Assembly: GCA_033030425.1 (NCBI GenBank)
Contig: JAUFSD010000006.1
Coordinates: 1,922,001 to 1,986,000 of the forward strand
Source: Verpa conica
Lineage: Eukaryota; Ascomycota; Pezizomycetes; Pezizales; Morchellaceae
DNA: 64,000 nt
Reading direction: 5' to 3'
Positions 1,727 to 36,969 of this stretch are shown here, piece by piece. The translations under genes and the position numbers were made by a program. The notes below the pieces were generated by a model. The model saw only the letters and a list, made by a program, of their open reading frames with translations, was not told the origin of the DNA and ran no database searches. Every line of letters begins with the position of its first letter. The first letter of the stretch is position 1.

Positions 1727-4700
1727 GAGAGGTTATTATCTGATATTCTTTTCGTATAGATACGAGGAATTACCTTTGTGATGAATGTCGCCTACGGGGA
1801 AGGGATTCCTGCACTTTTTATCAGATATTAAGTCTTCGAGCCCGATCTGCCTTGAAGGAAAAACGGCCTCTGGATCGAGACCGATTCGTGTCCTGAGACA
1901 AACCAGCCAATGATCACGATATCGGATCTGGACAGATCTCCTAATGTCGCTATGTCAAACAAGCCTCGCAGCCTGCTGGCTCCAATCGAGTGCCAATTTG
2001 TGCCCCGATGCCCCGGGTAGCCATTTTTTAAAAAAAATCGAAACTGATATTTAGTTAGCAGGCAGATTAGCGGTGGATTCACAGTCATGAACCATTGCAA
2101 TCGAGTCTGCAGGGTATGCATGTGGGGGAACCAGAATGCTGGGCTAAACCCTAGAGCCTCCCTTTCTGCAGTCTGGGGTCTATGAAGTGTTGTAGGCTAT
2201 GTGTCTGCTCTAATTCCTCCCCGTCTTTCACCTCGTCTTCCTTCTTCCTGGTCTCTTATTTTATGCTACTTCACTTTTAATTCCTTGTTTTGCACTCCCC
2301 GGCTTTTCAGATGTCCAATATATGTTTATGCCCCCGGGATCTCTTTATAATCCCGGTACCAGGTGATTCAGCCACAGTATAGAGGATTAAGGGGTTATTC
2401 ACATATCAGGCAACGGTAATTCGGGGTCATCGCGCCAAGGCGTATTGATAACCCTAACCCTTTAAAAGACCTGTACCACAGCTCATCACTCGCTATGATT
2501 CCTACCTTATCAGAGCACGTTATTTGTTTGTTCTCTTATAATAGTTTATCAATAATATTAATTGTGATTAAAAGAACCATTGAAGTCTTCAAATTTCAAA
2601 AATGGACATCAAGGAGCCTTCTCGCTGTACGCGTTATATATTCTACCAAAAGAGTGTCCTAGAATCTACTATGCTCTATGCCCTATGCCAGGGGTCGGCC
2701 CAGTGCAGCCTCTGGCCTACCAAAAAACAAGAGACGTTACACTGACGAATGACTACAATCGATTAGCAGCCCTCCCTGCCAATCGTATCTGATTGACATT
2801 TGTGCACGGGGCTGGGCCCGTGCCCCATACATTCTGTATGGTTTTGTATGATATGCAGACCCAGTCCTGTGCATAAACGTCAGTCAGCTACGAGTAGTCC
2901 TCTAGATTGAAGGCCAAAATCTCTAAGTCGTCACCCAAGAATTAAGCTGACCTACCTTGAGGTTTGAGCCATATAACTACAGCCTTTATATTTCTTCCAA
3001 ATCACTACGAGAGGTTCTCTTATCTGCTCTACCGAAGGATGTAGATCCTCTACTCGCCAATCGGCAGGTATGCTCCACCAGAGACTCTCACCCCCAGTAA
3101 GGGCCCCTGTCCGGAACTAGTACTTGCAGCGGGTAGGTTTACCTGCATTGAGATTGTCGGTAATTTTGTTGTGTTGTGCACGGGAGTATAGGCTTGGCAG
3201 TAGTGCACATGTGGCGGCGCAAGACAGCTCGCAGATCGAACAGTTTCTCGTGGAGAATTTCTGTCATTCAATGACGTATAGGGCCAAATTCTAACAGAAT
3301 TTTTCATAGCGGGGCCGGGTTTGCAGCTGCAGGCAGGTGAAACAAATTTGGGTCAAGCCCAAAATTGTGTACTCGAGGCAGGTATAATGGAGCAAAAGAT
3401 GTAAGCCCAGACAGGGGGGGGTGCCCTAGGAAATGTAGGTGCACTCGTCAATTGGTGACAATAGCTCATAGCTACTGGAAAACTAGTGGTGCGGGAGATT
3501 CAAAACTAGATACTTTTGCCGATTCACCGTGACTGGTTGGTTCATGGGATAGACAATTAACATTCCAACAGTTGTTGATCACCAGAATGCACAGACATTG
3601 CCCTTGCATTCGCGTCTCGCACAAGCTCAAGATCAACAAACTTAATATCAGTTTAATCAGTGGTTTGTGCTATCTGGGCCTAGACTCTGCTCCAAAAGGT
3701 CAAAACCCCCGACAAAGTACATATATCCTCCAATTTGAGCCACCCCATAATCAGTTGACTAGCGCCCTCTAGAGCCACAAAAAAAAGCGTCCAGCACTTG
3801 AGACAGAGCAGACCTGAGAACAGGGTACCAAGTTGCCCAAGTGCTCCCCAAGACCGCCCGAGAAAATGTATGTTATGACTCTTCTTGCACCACTCGGAGA
3901 TGTATAAGGTTTCTGTTGTGGCTTGATGTATTACACTTGTCAAATATTAGCGACCCCCAGGATGGTCTGTTTCACAAGTGTAACATCTCCATGTGCATTG
4001 TTGTGCACACTTCCCATCATGCAAGCGTACTGTAGAAACTGCCATTTACATAGGACAGCCGAGCCACAAGAGACAAGGAAAACACTTGCCAGTAGGTAGG
4101 TAGGTGCGCTTCAGTAAACCTCTAGTATAATTTAATGCATGCGAAAGTCTTTATCGCTCGAGATCGATTCTCACCATTGATTCCTGAGGCTATGCTGTCT
4201 CTAGGGCTAGGGTTACTGTAAGTTGCTTGTGGAAATAATAATATAACTTTCCGTACTCAGAGCTCTCACCGAAAGCTACTTTTGTCTACTTGCATGGCCC
4301 GAAAAAGGGAAAGACTTATCCTTTGCAGCCATCGAGGCTGCTTCAACACATACATGTGTCCTTAAACAAAGCATTTAAACCTTGCTACAGCTCGTGGTGG
4401 TCTCAGCTGCAATATATTGCTCAAAGAAAGCCACAATTACCCCACCTGGTTGGCCTAATGTGGTGATAATGAGCTTTGTTCGCCTTTCGATAGGCTCCTT
4501 AACTATCCTAATTTAAAAGAATTTGTGTAAGGTCATGTTCCCACCAAGAACTCTCAGGGCAGATATATGGGTAGAGATTGGTGATGGGTAATGCAGGGCA
4601 CCACGGGTCTAGCACGGTAAGATGGGGGTTGAGCGCACCATCCTACTACATGTATGTTGAAAACGCACGTGCTGCTCAAAAACCCTAACTCTCACTCCGT

Positions 4701-25450: not shown

Positions 25451-27878
25451 TCATGCAATAGTATTTAGTCCGCTCCCAAAATTCTTCGCAACACCATATC
25501 CCTGGTTATCTGACTCATCGGGCGAGCCATTCCCAGATTTTGGTGGTACCCATGTAACCTCCCAGATCCAGGTTTGAAGCCGTGCGTTTGGAAAAATGCG
25601 GTGGAGCACAGCATAGATACACGCAGAAATTGCAAAACCAGACAGGAAGGATAGCTGATAAAATAAGTAATATGCATGAATATTATTGGATGGGCGCATA
25701 TTGAGCAAACCTCATAAATTTCCATAACTCCCACTGCCGTGTTTTTGTCGTTTCTTAGCATGGCCGCAAAGCCAGGAATGTGCGGTATAACTCCACAACT
25801 CCACTAATGTATATTGCAATTTTGCGTATATTAGAGAAGGTTCCTCATATGGTTCTATACTTGGTATAGCTAAGAATTTCTAGTTAGGAAAAGGGGGGGG
25901 GGCACTGCTACTGAGGCTCTCCAGTCAACTCCTTTTGTGAACCAATATATACTTCTCGCATCTCTTACATATCTGTATTATCTTTAGTAATTGATTTATG
26001 GAATTTGAAATGATTACAGGGGCCTCACAGGTCTATAATCTTAAGTTTTTGCTGGTGAACTAAGTAGTAACTCGAGACTATGAGCCCAACTATCGGACCT
26101 AAAAAGACGCTATAGCTTCCCATGACATTAATGAAGACTGTGGCTGTATTCACAAACCTCCATGGGTTGAAAATAGGGCTAAGAATAGCTGTTAGGTATG
26201 CACCACGGCGAGTGGTAATATAGCGTGGGAAAAGGGCAGCCATATCGAACCCTCCGCTCAGCGAGTTTCCCGGTACATTTATCCCAATCTGCGATACCAC
26301 AAGTACTACTCCACTAAAGAAAATAACAGTTCTAGTGAGCACTGTTGGATCGTTTTTCTGGAGTAATGTGAGCATTTCTGTCAAGCCCCAGACTTGTTCC
26401 TGGTCTTGGAAACGATGTTGGGTTGCAGCGGTGACAAATATTCCAACCGTACAGCATAAAATATAACTTGCTGGTCCGGAGTAGAATTGTCCATAAAATG
26501 CGTCTCTAGGTGATCTACTAAATCGCGTATAGTCGTTACTGTTAAGAATTCCAGCTGCTATAGCTCCAACCATAGAAACGGATCCCCGGGCTATCGTCCA
26601 ACTTATTGAGGGGGTTGGGACTGGTTGAGGGGGGGAAAGTCCGTCAGGAGACATTGTTGAAAGTGCCCAAATAAAGAGAGCTATGAAGAATATAGACACA
26701 GATGTAGAAGTGACCTGGAAGAACCTTTGGAGTTTATGAGGGTGTATCCATATTAGTGGGAGCGAGATAATATTGAAAACTATATAACATAGGCTACTCA
26801 GGGTGAAGTTCAAATTTAGTTTGTGTACTTGGGGTTGAAATCAAGTTTTGTGCGTGTGTAGTAGGGAAGTAGATAGATGTGAAATACCATTTTGTAGCTG
26901 TTCCAAACTCTACAAGGTCAAGTGTGTTGGGGATGCGTTCTTCAATGTCTGGAAATATTGCGTGTAGGCAGACGTAAAGCGATTCTCCACCAACCCAGCT
27001 ATACAGATGTTAATATCTAATCTTTATAATTTATGCAGTAGAAGAACCTACGCTTGGAATCCGTACCAGACTATACTCCAGGTAAATTCAGTAAAACTTT
27101 CCATATCTCTCAATTGATAGAATTTAAGAAGATTATACCAAGGCTTAATATAACGCGGTTCAAAACGACAAATAGCGATCCATGTATTCCCCATATATAG
27201 CGGTTTGTGACTGGGAACCCAAGTTGATAATACATTCCTTTCCTAGTTAGCTACAGCTATAACCTACTGAGAAAGGTCATACCTGGAGTGCCTAGTTTGA
27301 AATCCTTGGATTTAGTAGACTATCCGAACTGTTGAGTCACTGGGATCATCTACCGTTCAACATCAAGAAAAATATCGATATGAAGCTTCCAATAGTTACC
27401 GCTATTAAGGATTGCCACCAATTCAGACCAATCGCTAGGAAAGCGGATCCCATCATGTAAGTTGCTATGGTCGTATTACTCAAAATCTGTTTGTGGTAAA
27501 AGTCAGTGATGTTTCAATGGGTGAGCTTGTTGGTGGTAAAACATACTGATAGCTGAGTATATGTCCAGGTAGCTGTAGATACAATCATTAGTTTACTGAG
27601 GGCCGAGGAATAAGAGGTTGTAACTACTCCATGTTCTTCTTTCCGAGCTAATGGGCTCGATATCTGTGCTCCTTAGACTTCCGATAACTTGTATTTCTTA
27701 GGGATAGCTATAGCAAACCTTTGCTTATCCACCCTTTCTCCCATATCTCTTTCTCGAGCTCAATCTCACTTATAGGGTAGCTAACACTGCCATGGCTGAG
27801 CAAGGATGTGGATTCATTCTGTTCGTTGTTAGAGGTGCTCGAGGGCCGAGGGCGGTACCTAGAGGTCGAGAAATCCAT
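25451..27878 (-). CDS. NCS1-family nucleobase/allantoin-type permease
   Basis: Twelve exons: 27878-27719, 27663-27628, 27572-27547, 27486-27354, 27291-27283 (9 nt), 27237-27139, 27070-27052, 26998-26888, 26796-26029, 25972-25906, 25803-25711 and 25654-25451. They total 1725 nt, coding 574 residues. Every join keeps phase. The product follows the Fur-like NCS1 family throughout: KDIEPISSERRTW, GSAFLAIGLNWWQSL, YQLGFPVTNRYIWG, SLVWYGFQAWVGGESLY, SNDYTRFSR, NSLSGGFDMAALFPRYI, YSVFLGPIVG, DWRASVAW and GVIPHIPGFAAML. These proteins import uracil, allantoin, uridine or thiamine-like compounds with protons or cations; which one is unknown. Two choices are soft. The exon starting at 26796 could start at 26793. 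The exon ending at 25906 uses a poor donor (GTGCCC) beside a C-run; the GTAGCA donor six bases earlier also keeps frame. Earlier I saw a frameshift near 27605; the intron 27573-27627 explains it. Confidence 0.85.
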
Positions 27879-30416: not shown

Positions 30417-31099
30417 TGTGCTATTAGTATATAGTAAAGTTGGCCATTTCTTCCTACTGAAGGGGGGACCGGGGGGAGGGTATATAAAGGTTAATGGGCT
30501 TTCGACCGTAGAGTATTAACATCAAGAACCTTTCTATAGAAATGTACCGAGAGGTTTTCGATTCTATAAATTAAGATGAACCTTATTGATGCCTATGATA
30601 AATTTTATATACGGTGGGAGTCTTTAAAAAATCAAGTTAAAATTATACTACTGAACGCTATTGAGATGAGTGTGTGGGTTCGCATTCGTAAGTCGGGTAC
30701 GGGAGAAATAACTGCTACTTTTGATGTATCAACAAGTTAGTGCTGTGGGTAATTGGCTATCGGTTATTATTCTATTCTTTCCTTTAGAGAACAATACCTG
30801 CCTTGAACCTTTCCTTGTACAGTTTGGACCTCAGTTTCTTTGAAAGGTATTGTATTTAGTAGGAGGGGCTCCAGGGACGCAAGTGATATTGGTGATCTAG
30901 TGATAACGTATATACTAATTTAGTTTATTGGTATTTACAAAGAGTGATTGTCCATGATCTTTCTGCGGGGGGATGTTGCCGGTAGAGATGTACGCACTGT
31001 TATAGAGGGGACGGTGAAGTTGAAACGGCCAGGGTGCCGGTGGGGACCACACTTCAACTTCCCCGCAAATCCATTTATTTGCCCCTTAATGCTGCAATA
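30417..31099. other. intergenic
   Basis: This is the 3' flank of the reductase and the promoter of the glycosidase. It is AT-rich; I see no other feature. Confidence 0.4.
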
Positions 31100-32804
31100 A
31101 TGAATCGAGTATCAACTGAGGATCTTTGCCACTTCCGCGAGACCGCGTCTTCTCTCATCCCTCAGCTTATTGAGCGACATGAGGCTCCAAAGAATGTGAT
31201 CCGATTCGAACCCGACTCTGAGACATATCTCCGGTACAAACCAGAGAAGCTTTTCCCAGTACAAGATCTTGGGAAACGGCTATGGGGAAAGGGAGAGGAG
31301 TTTATTATCGACTTTGAGTCTCACCGGACTGGATATTTCTCTTTTGATTTGGGGGGTGAAGGCGACTCGGTTGGAGATGCGCCTGCAAGGCTTAGATTGG
31401 TTTTCGGAGAAGTCCCGGCAGACGTAGTTGAAGATCTTGATCCGGCAAAATCAAAGGTTTTTGTTTATTTCTTGAGAGTATGTTTATTATCAATATAGCA
31501 TGCTAAAACCGATATGTGTATGTAGTCATGGATATCTACAGCGTGGTATCCGGACGAGATAGTCAATATCGACGAATGCCCTTCAAGTGTGAGGCTGCCG
31601 CGCCGATTCGCGTTCCGCTATGTCCGCATACAAGTGCTGTGCGGGTCAAAGTCATACAAGATAAAGTTTTTAAATGTAAAGGCCACAGGGGCCTCATCCG
31701 CAGCCTCTCTGCCCCCTCCATACAGCACCTCCGACATCCTACTCCAGAGAATAGATGAGATTTCTATTGTCACACTTCGGGACTGCATGACCACAATATT
31801 TGAGGATGGACCAAGAAGAGATCGGCGGCTATGGCTTGGGGATCTGAGGCTACAGGCGCTGGCAAATTATCATACGTTCAAAAATTACGATCTTGTGAAA
31901 AGGTGTCTTTACCTTTTTGCAGGGTTCCCGAGGGACGATGGTAGTGTCGCTGCGGCAATTTTCGAGAGACCGGTAACAAAAGCCGCCGGAGACTATATCT
32001 TAGATTATGACGTTCTTTTCGGAGTCACTGTTTTGGATTACGTCCTGTAAGTCCTAGTCTTGGTTGCTCCTATTTTGGGCCGTTGACATTGTGTCTCTGA
32101 CTATGTAATTCTCCAGCGCATCTGGCGACAAGGCTACAGGACGTGACCTTTGGAAAACAGTAGTCAATAGCACGAGAAAGTCGGTGGCCTCGATATCTAC
32201 TGACGGGAAATTTACCCCCCCAGAAGACGTATGGGTTTTCCTTGACTGGCAGGAAGGGCTTGACCGGACAACAGGGGCACACGCTCTTATTATATTCGCA
32301 TTAAAGGCAGTCAACCAACTTGCTTCAATTCTAGGCTACCCGGAGATCAATACTGATGTTATATCGGTTTCTTCTAAAAAAGTTAGTTCCAGCTTTGATC
32401 CGCAAAAGGAAGTCTTCCTGAGTGGCCCACAAGGACAAATATCCTGGGCTTCCCAAGCATGGGTAGCCCTCGCAGATATTGTGCCGGCGGAAAAAGCGAA
32501 GATTGCGCTTATAAACGCCTACAAAGATCCTGACGCGGTGAAAGCTATGACACCATATTTGTTTCATTATGTTACAGAAGCATTTGCAAGAGTAGGGGCA
32601 AAAGAGGAGGCAATGGCATTGCTGAAGTATTATTGGGGTGGTATGGTCAACAATGGTGCCGATGCATTTTGGGAGGCCTATGATCCAGGGAACTCGAAGT
32701 TTAGTCCCTATGATGATTACTTGAATAACTCGTACTGTCATGCTTGGAGTTGTACACCATCTTATCTATTGAGGTCTGGGTTGATCCAAGAGAGTGCTGT
32801 GTAG
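31100..32804 (+). CDS. six-hairpin glycosidase, alpha-L-rhamnosidase-like
   Basis: Three exons, 31100-31456, 31526-32046 and 32117-32804, with introns of 69 and 70 nt, coding 521 residues. The N-terminal beta domain has FIIDFESHRTGYFSFDLGGE and APARLRLVFGEVP. The catalytic (alpha/alpha)6 part starts near residue 190 with IFEDGPRRDRRLWLGDLR at about 210-227 and runs through WVFLDWQEGLDRTTGAHAL to CHAWSCTPSYLLRSG. This is the fungal rhamnosidase-like group related to GH78. The spacing D-x4-D-x6-D in DGPRRDRRLWLGD matches the acidic triad of GH78 enzymes, but the middle residue is Asp where bacterial enzymes have Glu. No signal peptide is seen, so the enzyme is probably intracellular. The start at 31100 is the first in-frame ATG; the open frame upstream begins only with GTG. 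Confidence 0.87.
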
Positions 32805-33074
32805 TAGAAGTAGAAAAAAAGACCCACGGAGTTAGCGGTTGTGTTAGCTCTTGTGAAGTGTTTTTTCTGGTTAACCATAGCCTTTTGAACAAAAAAATCT
32901 TTTAGATATTGACTAGGCACATATTTAGTTGGGGGGGGGGGTGGTTGCATAATCTATTTCAGCCTCAGCAACTCATATCGCGATGCCGTTACCCCGGTCC
33001 TTTTCTATGCATACGGAAGGTGATCGCCCCTGCCTTGTGTGACAATGTAGAATGCTCAGCCTTGTGTTGGATTC

Positions 33075-36000
33075 ATGATGACTATCACATCAGTGGTCTC
33101 ATCTGCCTCAAGTTTGCTTCGTACTCAAAAAATGGAACGAAACCTATGCACAACTGGCCTAGGGGATACAGGCAAAACCATCCTACATGATATGGAAGGG
33201 CCAAAATCTATTGAAGTCAAGCAAGCCATGGGTATGTTTTGTATGTCCGCGTGTTTAGCACTCAGGGTCAGGGGCTTTGGTCAAGCTAATTTGATATGAG
33301 AGAAGCTCAAAACAGAGAAAACGTTGAGTATTTACAGTTTGAAGGAAATAATTCATACGCTGCTTCATCAACGGGCAAGATACTTGAGCTTTGTACTCAG
33401 ACATGTGCGAGGGTCTCGCGAAACCTGGAAAGCTTTGAAACATATGATACAGGAGAGATAAGTGGGCTTATGATGCTCCAGTCGATGCGGGTTTTGGAGC
33501 GGCGATTACATATCTGGGGCCAGATAGCGACCTTCTCATTTGACGATTCCCCAGAGTGCTACTTACGTACCGACCATCCACTTCAAACCCTTACCAAAAT
33601 CAATGGAGTCCTATGTGATCTTGACCGTGGTGTGGTCGGGCTTCATTCCCCGCATATCAAAGATCAAGTCAGTTAAACGTTCATTCTAATAATAAAGGCT
33701 TTCGTTGTTAGTTATACTAAATAAAATTAAAGCGCACCTCCGGGGCTATTGGTCCGGTCGAAATCGGAAATTATCCCAAGGCTAGCAAACTTTTTTACGA
33801 ACTTATCAATCTTATCGATATTCTTTATGCACAGCTTCCAGAAATATGGCGTGAGACCAGCAAATGGGCGTTGACGGCAATGCTGATGGCAGACATCACT
33901 CCATCTCTAATTTATAAAGGGCTTCGTGGAGGAGTTCAGGATAATATATTCCCAATGGCCCTTGGCATGGAAGTTCCTAGGAATCTTTTGACTATGTTTT
34001 TCTTGCTTGACGAAATGATCAACACAGTATCACCTCCAATGTCGTACGAAAGTGGGCTTCTGAAGTCGAGCGACTTTGTCTGCCAAGGGTTCTTCGACGG
34101 AATTGGAGTCTACTTTAGACATAGTAATATATATAGCCCTTCTCCGGGTGGGTTTATTACTGTGCATACCGCGTGGCAGAGCAGGGGGACACTAGGAGAC
34201 ATGACGAATACGCCTATTATGATGGAGCACCAGAAACGATTGCAGTTACCGAAACCCGAGGAGATGCGGGTTCTAGTCCTTGCTGGTTATCTCGAGAATA
34301 GGCGTATGGGCCGAGTAGAGATCATGTATCATACTCCAGAATGGGCATCACGACGATCTGCCCCAGTGTCACTTCGTCGACTACTTGCTGAAAAGCAATT
34401 TCACACTTCCATGAAAGTAAGGATTTCTATTGCTCGGAAGTTAGCTTGCGCTTTACTTTACTTTCACGCGTGTCATTGGATCCATGGGAACATTAGCGAT
34501 CGTAACATCATCTTTTTCAACCAATCAGAATCTGGACTAAACTTCTCCGAGCCGTTCTTTTGCAATTTTACACCTGTTCCGGAAGAAAAGCTAGCAACTC
34601 TCTCAGAAACAGTCTACCGCGGTAGTTCAGGGGCCGGGGGTTACCATTTTCGATCAAAAAGTCATGATATTTACCAACTAGGCTGGGTCATACTGCAGAT
34701 CGTACTAGATGAAGAGACTATATCTCGTTTGCATCATCTTGAATCGGGACAGCAGCCTTGCAAGGATGATTTTGAACTCCTGATAGCCCAATCAGTTCAG
34801 TTTTCGGTCATGGATAAACAAGCGGCAGTTTCTTTGAAGGATGCAATTATGGGGTGCCTTTCTGGGCAGGCTGCACTTGAGGGAAACATCCAACATGATG
34901 AAGAATTTAATCATTGCACAGGGCTTTATTGGAGAGTAGTTAGACCACTGGATCACTGTTTATCACTTTTGATGAAAGTCGAGGAGATTGATTCAGTGTT
35001 TCCAACGGAGATTTGCTGGACTGGACGTCGTACATTAGGTGTAGGTACCCTCTGGAGTGACTGCTATAGCTATTCTTGGGAAATAACACGGTTACAATAT
35101 CTAGTTGGAAGGTTATCGGAGGGGAAGTCAGGAGTATATAGAAGGAGTAGTGGAGTCTAAAATAACTAGGGAGAACAGCTCCCCAAGGATAAGCATAACA
35201 AGTATACAGGGGGTAGAGACAACAAACAATCTTCACGAGAAAATAATTGAGAAGGACAGGAAGCAGATATACCCGGTAAATGCTGATCCGTCTCAAATTA
35301 AGAATTGGCAAAAAGATATGCTTCCGCGACTGGAGAAGATTCTCGAGCTATATCTTCCCCCGACCGAATCAGCATCCATCGATCTTCTCGGGATTGGAAC
35401 CTCAAGAGAAACATCGAGACCAACAATCGTTGTGACCTGCAAGAGTAGTCGACAAATTAAGGCACATATTCTGAAGAAATTTTCTTATGATGCGAATACA
35501 TTTGATCTCAAAATCAGGAAGGGCTTTGTTCGCAGATCATCTAGCAGGAAAGTAAGGAGCAAAGAGAGCGCTAGACGGTCAACCGGACTATTCTCTCAGG
35601 ACTGCTCTAATAGACAGTACCAGCCCAAACCGCTATCTGGCGCTTCCATTGGAGCCTGTCTAGATGGTCAGCCACTACCGCCTGGGACATATGGTGGGTT
35701 AATTCTTATCGACGGACAGCCATACGGGATGACTGTGCATCACCTACTTGATCCCGAATCTGAAGGCGAAGAAACGGATGATGAGAGTGCCGAAGACGAC
35801 TTGTCCGTCATAGCAAGTGAGGATGAGCGTGGATATGATTTCGGAGGAGACTCACTGGTTGGCACAAGTTCAAGTACGGACGTAAGTGAGATCTGATTTT
35901 TAGTCTACTGCCTCGGTTGAGCTCTTACCGATAAAATTTTTGCCGTGAAGGTAGACTCCATGCCGGTATACTGGGATGATGGTGAATCAGATGAAGGGAG

Positions 36001-36969
36001 TGATAACTTAACAGATGAACTAGAACGGATTTCGAATGCCGGAGGATTCGAATTGGGGGATCAATTTCTAGCTCCTGAGGATATTAGAGATGCCTCAAAT
36101 AACGTTAGTGAGACTCCTGGCGATGTTGGAGACATACCAGGATTAGACAAGGATCATGGTATGGATATTGTAATAACACAGCCGGCTCAAGACGATCTTG
36201 TCGACCAAGAATCTTTCGAATTCGAACAAAGCATTGGGGCTTACAAGCTAGGCACTATCCTCGCCTCATCAGGTATCCGGAGAGTAACCATTGGATCAGA
36301 AAAGCACGAGATTGATTGGGCATTAATCCAGATTTCTTCTCAGAGACTTGGAGGGCGCAACATAATTCGCGGCGGCGGGAAATATCTCCCAACCGCAGGA
36401 TCGCCGGACCTAGAGCCATGTGCCATTGTCCCAATGACAGAACTCAGTGAACTTAGCGTCCATGCTACAGGCCGTACAAGTGGGCTTCAAGGGGGGGTTA
36501 TATCTCCGGCTATGAGCTCAGTTAGACTGCACGGCCGTCAAACGTTTTCTAAAAGCTGGCACGTTGTTGGGAATCTCGGGAGTATGTATCCTTGCCTTTA
36601 GATATGTATTTGAAAAACGATTCTGATACCTCCAAAGTTCCCGGAGACTCTGGTTCCTGGGTTGTAGATAACGGCCAAGGCCGGGTATGTGGCCATATTC
36701 TTGCGCGTTGCTCGACCCGTCGGGTTTCATATATCGTCCCTATGGAGCTACTGCTTCAAGATATTAAAGAGACGCTCAAAGCAGATTGCGTAGGTTTGCC
36801 AACTGTCGCTACGGAGGTTGGAAGACTCCTTGATGAAGCTCTTGCACGGCTGGAAGACACTAGTATAGATATTCAGCGAGGATCTGGGCGGGATAGCCAT
36901 CTTTGTCCAGGGTCGAGTCCATCAACGGGTGCAGGTGGTAGTGATGATATTATCCCTTTGGCTTATTGA
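33075..36969 (+). CDS. HeLo domain - pseudokinase - trypsin-like protease fusion
   Basis: Six exons: 33075-33231, 33306-33667, 33733-35040, 35105-35881, 35951-36581 and 36638-36969, introns 56-74 nt, all phases matching, about 1188 residues (1187 if the second ATG at 33078 is used). Domains: an N-terminal stretch with GLGDTGKT (about 27-34); a HeLo-like helical domain (about 75-165, TQTCARVSRNLESFETYD then LERRLHIWGQ); a protein-kinase-like domain (about 350-585) with HGNISDRN for the HRD loop and FFCNF for DFG, so probably catalytically dead; then a fungal trypsin-like protease with TVHH (His, about 820), HEIDWALIQI (Asp, about 989) and IPGDSGSWVV (Ser, about 1082), and an acidic insert between His and Asp. 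HeLo domains permeabilise membranes in fungal cell death. The key join is intron 35041-35104 (donor GTAGGT, acceptor TCTAG). Without it the kinase part stops at 35160, and the protease part has no in-frame ATG before about 35319. Two genes remain possible. Confidence 0.75.

Follow-up and report, generated by a model that had tools for sequence, protein, structure and literature searches.

A pseudokinase-protease gene of Verpa conica as a probable diverged member of the SltB family

The 64,000-nucleotide stretch of Verpa conica DNA analysed here (the window) contains a row of open frames in which the original prediction had recognized a HeLo domain, a pseudokinase and a trypsin-like protease, encoded by one gene in a combination not known before. 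The locus raises the question of whether these frames do belong to a single gene, and whether such a gene is a new kind of fusion, perhaps for membrane-permeabilising cell death, or a relative of something already described. The predicted three-part order, of a helical part, a pseudokinase and a protease in one gene, is real, the frames of the window joining in phase. What they encode is, with high probability, no new kind of fusion; we regard the gene as a diverged member of the known SltB family.

The predicted gene and its join

The gene is predicted to extend from about 33296 to 36969 on the forward strand and to specify one protein, in which helices at the N-terminus are followed by a pseudokinase and this in turn by a chymotrypsin-like protease. 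Five exons (33296-33667, 33733-35040, 35105-35881, 35951-36581 and 36638-36969) join in phase to give 1139 amino acids with no internal stop; the stop-to-stop frames from which they are drawn are 33290-33676 upstream, 33721-35160 for the kinase, and 35105-35896, 35921-36601 and 36553-36969 for the protease. Exon 33296-33667 carries the start codon and HeLo-like helices 1-3 (KILELCTQ.. from 33377, LMMLQSMRVLERRLHIWGQ from 33467 and LQTLTKINGVL from 33581), and is collinear with the relatives P0012 and P0013, whose single ORF runs from the N-terminus into the kinase. The intron that follows, 33668-33732 (GTCAGT..TTAAAG, phase 0), excises an in-frame stop, and the exact position of its 3' end is less sure because of its AAG acceptor. 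Exon 33733-35040 begins with HeLo-like helix 4 (KASKLFYELINL from 33778) and continues into the pseudokinase. Beyond the joining intron at 35041-35104, exon 35105-35881 encodes a conserved region with two family-conserved blocks, W..LPRLE and IDLLGIGT..TIVVTC, and then the first half of the protease with the catalytic His at 35741-35743. Intron 35882-35950 (GTAAGT..GTGAAG, phase 0) excises the in-frame stops between 35894 and 35920, and exon 35951-36581 leads through an acidic linker into the protease core with the catalytic Asp (HEIDWAL) at 36314-36316. The last intron, 36582-36637 (GTATGT..CCAAAG, phase 1), lies 4 codons upstream of the catalytic Ser, and its acceptor at 36637 is fixed because the GDSG motif must come next; exon 36638-36969 supplies that Ser (GDSGSW, 36649-36651), the C-terminus and the stop. 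Three of the four introns of the model end in AAG acceptors. A putative second donor, GTATCC, is present at 36586 within the last intron; in aspergilli, the intron that directly precedes this Ser codon is reported to be alternatively spliced, with truncated products (PMC4557415).

The original prediction had joined six exons in phase, and five of these stand. The one that falls is the first, at 33075-33231, on account of its splice sites and of the lack of a counterpart in P0012 and P0013: strong donors at 33232 and 33241 reach the next frame through AAG acceptors only, the best choice of a YAG acceptor requires a GC donor, and nothing corresponds to this exon in P0012 and P0013, which read from the N-terminus into the kinase. 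Of the in-phase options for a first intron, two of which were also translated, none finds support. We have therefore dropped it. The segment is probably noncoding upstream region, and the ATG at 33296 suffices as a start without it.

Four AGGCA pentamers, the consensus for the zinc-finger factor SltA (PMC4557415), are candidate sites upstream of 33296, at 32915 and 33170 on the forward strand and at 33031 and 33104 on the reverse strand. They fall within 32805-33295, a region of 491 bp that was chosen after the fact and for which ~0.9 would be expected at the density of the window; the window as a whole shows no enrichment (117 against 130.5 expected). They are possible autoregulatory sites. 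Among the neighbours, exons at 30986-32804 on the forward strand look by eye like a glycoside hydrolase of rhamnosidase-like type, and an open frame at 26025-26840 on the reverse strand looks, again by eye, like a nucleobase/NCS1-type permease.

The link between the kinase and protease parts depends on the intron at 35041-35104 (GTAGGT..ATCTAG, phase 0). Read unspliced past 35040, the kinase frame reaches a stop at 35158-35160. The protease frame opens at 35105, and its first Met is residue 72, within the conserved W...LPRLE block, so that the earlier statement that this frame has no usable ATG before that residue is borne out by the frame translation and by the conservation in the family. The intron itself, also part of the original prediction, is supported by what is found at the equivalent place in relatives. 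In a comparison of 16 kinase-exon ORFs (P0001-P0014, P0136 and P0137), made on amino acids rather than DNA, 13 show the in-frame Val-Gly or Val-Ser expected of a phase-0 GT donor; this pair lies 16-22 residues past the LSLL with which the kinase core ends in 10 of the 13 (23 residues in the window) and 8 residues past the matching Cys in P0012-P0014. P0009 and P0136 do not fit the pattern and P0137 ends too early, and in P0002, P0005 and other close relatives similarity persists for some residues beyond the inferred donor point. In P0015 (1154 aa) a single ORF without an intron at the join covers the kinase, the linker and the protease's first half, and the fusion there is therefore independent of splicing. 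Retention of the joining intron (35041-35160) would produce a HeLo-like/pseudokinase protein lacking the protease and resembling PskA.

Membership in the SltB family

Of 7984 candidates scored with the protease part as query, with lengths limited to 0.55-1.75 times 1139 aa, 601 reached E<=1e-3. The best 120 of the 601 come from genera that include Aspergillus, Penicillium, Talaromyces, Venturia, Macrophomina, Hyaloscypha, Geoglossum and Candelina, and by family HMMs 117 of these 120 have kinase and protease on the same chain; in 110 of the 120 the N-terminal part, kinase and protease follow in the same order. The remaining 3 are protease-only ORFs of 628-728 aa from the jgi source, which are probably unspliced. 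The domain order that was to be sought in other ascomycetes is thus found there in fused form, and the triple fusion cannot be called unknown. The HMMs were built from 110-112 relatives with the window left out, which makes the counts partly circular for the relatives, though not for the window. Its kinase part matches at E 6.5e-16 and its protease part at E 1.7e-142 (both E-values for a set of 138 sequences), and the latter match confirms the trypsin-like protease domain.

The SltB family takes its name from Aspergillus nidulans SltB (AN6132), a protein of 1272 aa with a pseudokinase and a trypsin-like protease, for which PMC4557415 counted 69 homologues; the same source reports the family from Pezizomycotina only, always alongside SltA, and did not find protease-only genes. 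Loss of SltB renders A. nidulans sensitive to cations and alkali (PMC4557415). According to earlier work cited in PMC11011638, autoproteolysis of A. nidulans SltB frees the pseudokinase prodomain, and SltB then cuts SltA from 78 to 32 kDa. The window gene shares with AN6132 the succession of pseudokinase, conserved region, linker and serine protease on one chain; the candidate AGGCA sites upstream may be a further common trait. Both genes also have an intron ahead of the catalytic Ser, with identical codon offset and phase: A. nidulans sltB has a single intron, which begins at nt 3413, and the catalytic residue is Ser1142 (PMC4557415), which places the intron at codon 1138, phase 1, 4 codons before the Ser, and the corresponding values in the window are codon 1030, phase 1, and Ser1034. 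The two differ in that sltB has one intron and the window model four. P0078, from A. fumigatus, has the same length (1272 aa) as A. nidulans SltB. The gene models of two other relatives extend the SltB frame into further domains, a malic enzyme in P0104 and Drf_GBD in P0023, and are possibly annotation errors.

By its sequence the window gene is a strongly diverged SltB, and the divergence is uneven along the chain. Median identity to the family is 20% for the HeLo-like part and 21% for the kinase, against 47% and 36% within the family, whereas the protease halves reach 42% and 49% against 46% and 54%; single values against P0015 are 27% for the kinase and 52% for the first protease part. A protease tree built from 46 rows puts the window gene beside P0015 and outside the others, but the branches leading to both are long (1.12 and 4.42 changes per column, respectively) and the placement is therefore unsure. 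The lineage of the gene is perhaps poorly sampled. A search with a 16-sequence alignment brought up 15 ORFs, all of them short (328-547 aa), but no additional fused protein of the subfamily to which the window gene belongs; its scored matches did not include P0015, although this sequence is part of the alignment. A second protease of the same kind was not found in the 45.8-Mb, 25-contig assembly with the window protease exon and P0016 as queries, in searches whose counts are lower bounds, and scans of viral and of bacterial/archaeal contigs found no relatives.

The catalytic triad of the model, His773-Asp941-Ser1034, is complete. Among relatives 1000 aa or longer, 113/113 have the His pair, 112/113 the Asp and 111/113 the Ser, the misses being P0015, where the residues are out of frame, and for Ser also P0134. 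PMC4557415 left the catalytic Asp of A. nidulans SltB among residues 1037, 1046 and 1049. In P0078, Asp1032 of HEIDWAL is 105 residues from Ser1137, the same distance as from 1037 to 1142, and Asp1041 and Asp1044, which correspond by spacing to 1046 and 1049, do not fall in columns whose conservation is 95% or higher; the catalytic residue is thus likely, on this spacing, to be that of HEIDWAL, Asp1037 in A. nidulans. The published numbering of its catalytic His is 925 in one place and 939 in another. The protease exons of the window have no match in Pfam, Peptidase S64 included. Like SltB, the S64 protease Ssy5 is a fungal chymotrypsin-like enzyme that activates a transcription factor, and a weak MEROPS match of A. 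nidulans SltB to S64 has been reported (PMC4557415), but the two have no clear relation in sequence, the best score being that of P0078 (10.2 bits, E 0.25, against a cut-off of 23.6). The protease profile had no match at E<=10 among PDB sequences, the best 60 of 494 rows for the whole-family profile against the PDB are kinases, and a viral fold library returned mainly kinases and no lead. The structural model of the protease, for its part, resembles the trypsin-like protease of rice NARROW LEAF 1 (NAL1), at 14% identity. NAL1 is, to our knowledge, a plant protein without a pseudokinase.

The pseudokinase and the HeLo-like front end

The pseudokinase is confirmed by a match of the window kinase exon to Pfam DUF7580 (PF24476; E 1.7e-8) and by the loss of two kinase motifs: HGN replaces HRD at 34483-34491, and FCNF replaces DFG from 34558. 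For the window the beta-3 column, in which VAIK would be read, is unsure. At the position of the HRD Asp, 57 of 113 relatives have Asn and 50 have Asp; at that of the DFG Asp, 100 have Ser and none has Asp. A literature search turned up no paper that names DUF7580.

The HeLo domain of the original prediction has profile matches in the family and is weakly supported in the window itself. All 38 family members scanned (38 of the 70 in set A2) match PF14479 (HeLo) at E<=0.01, and 31 of the 38 match DUF7580; against the HeLo cut-off of 23.2 bits, P0018 (31.3) and P0115 (24.2) score above it and P0078 (23.1) and P0016 (17.9) below it. The window exon matches neither Pfam nor the family HMM for this part, and hhalign gives E 0.051 with a probability of 1%, although the RL..WG helix aligns in order. 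A HeLo-like part in the window is likely from its position, unproven as it is by sequence, and its assignment rests on the family. The structural model of P0113 (mean pLDDT 73) predicts four helices, at residues 2-13, 22-45, 64-89 and 107-135, ahead of the kinase; that of P0012 (mean pLDDT 49) gives a hint of N-terminal helices, and the folds that it matches are those of kinases. In the fold-match lists the rows shown are taken up by kinase and protease, with none for the HeLo-like part, which is not counter-evidence.

HeLo/HELL cell-death proteins and MLKL have a helical bundle ahead of a pseudokinase, as the SltB family does, and the family differs from them in the triad-bearing protease behind it and in the character of its N-terminus. 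A hydrophobic stretch (hydropathy of at least 1.0 before helix 2) is present in 1 of 106 members, P0080, and missing in the other 105 (the sample being 106 of the 111 members longer than 1100 aa, 4 of which have no anchor motif and 1 of which is too short). As a control, over stretches that differ slightly in length from those used for the family, the first 40 residues reach at least 1.0 in 6 of 9 long ORFs at DUF7580 loci of the same genome. All four that match both HeLo and DUF7580 (L003-L006) are hydrophobic, at 1.46-2.31; the other two, L014 and L016, match DUF7580 only, with no HeLo match at E<=0.01. The window itself has a hydropathy of 0.35 in the first 45 residues from the ATG at 33296. 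With the unsupported exon at 33075 the value would be 1.38 in the first 35 residues, and were that exon real, a killer-type HeLo helix would therefore be favoured. Pseudokinase ORFs without an SltB-type protease recur in this genome, and in L003-L006 the N-terminal helix is of the killer-HeLo type.

What seems to be new here is mainly that the front end of the SltB family looks like a cell-death domain. The available portions of PMC4557415 and PMC11011638 do not mention HeLo, a literature search gave no relevant paper with both 'SltB' and 'HeLo', and the word 'trypsin' is absent from the available text of PMC12881547, PMC10197012 and PMC9815663 and occurs once, in the reference list, in that of PMC4986451.

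A latent stress protease and its alternatives

We think it highly probable that the window gene encodes an SltB, that is, a latent intracellular serine protease that is governed by a HeLo-like/dead-kinase prodomain and serves in stress signalling. Weighing against this are the strong divergence of the N-terminal half, the long branches of the window gene and P0015, the three AAG acceptors, and the lack of another fused protein of its subfamily in the alignment search. By analogy with A. nidulans, we infer that it acts through autoproteolysis and cleavage of SltA. Its N-terminal half, the HeLo-like bundle and the dead kinase, would be a regulatory prodomain and not a pore-forming one; when cations or alkali cause stress, the C-terminal domain, a chymotrypsin-like protease, would cut the chain and separate from the prodomain, the freed protease would convert SltA to a short active form, and active SltA might feed back on sltB transcription. 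The suggestion that the protease could be a self-processing device comes close to the autoproteolysis reported for A. nidulans SltB (PMC11011638).

The reading that had been expected, a fungal counterpart of MLKL in which a HeLo-pseudokinase executes cell death and the protease is its activator or a second output, draws on the HeLo matches throughout the scanned family, on the four helices modelled ahead of the kinase in P0113, on the occurrence of HELL domains in proteins with kinase or pseudokinase domains (PMC12881547) and on the hydropathy that the exon at 33075 would confer. That exon is unsupported, however, the hydrophobic N-terminus of the control ORFs is nearly absent from the family, and A. 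nidulans sltB nulls are stress-sensitive (PMC4557415), so that membrane-permeabilising cell death is disfavoured and this reading strikes us as improbable. To much the same degree we doubt that the gene is a decaying SltB pseudogene. Its AAG acceptors and diverged N-terminal half might be taken as signs of decay, but 1139 codons have been kept free of stops and frameshifts, every catalytic residue is retained, the kinase exon is 39-51% identical to P0001-P0014, which stay open over it, and searches of the 45.8-Mb assembly yielded no other copy. The least probable of the alternatives is that our model has wrongly joined a gene for a HeLo-DUF7580 pseudokinase to a separate protease gene next to it. 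The kinase frame does have its own stop, DUF7580-type matches are numerous in the genome, and pseudokinase proteins free of a protease exist, such as the PskA (AN7985) type, which has an SltB-like, related pseudokinase half, lacks the protease found in the window gene and is reported to stand outside the Slt pathway (PMC4557415). Against two genes stand the protease frame that has no Met before a conserved block, the uninterrupted ORF of P0015, the fusion in nearly all of the best 120 of 601 relatives and the failure of PMC4557415 to find protease-only genes.

An extension of the SltB reading, which we hold to be rather unlikely, is that SltB is a repurposed MLKL-type switch. The HeLo-like bundle, together with the dead kinase, would sense the state of the membrane or of ions and keep the protease closed, and the HeLo-pseudokinase fragment released by autoproteolysis would have a separate function at a membrane or the vacuole. 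Such a switch, if it exists, would account for the suppression of vps null mutations by slt mutations, which does not depend on cation tolerance and which PMC4557415 calls enigmatic.

For the family as a whole, the regulatory half of SltB groups with the HeLo/DUF7580 pseudokinases, several of which in this genome keep a killer-type N-terminal helix, and it seems that a cell-death module was disarmed and coupled to a protease in the service of ion-stress signalling. The choice of catalytic Asp in the protease is narrowed, and NAL1, for which structures have been solved, suggests itself as a template. What was supposed to be a new cell-death fusion is recast as a testable claim on a stress pathway that is already known.
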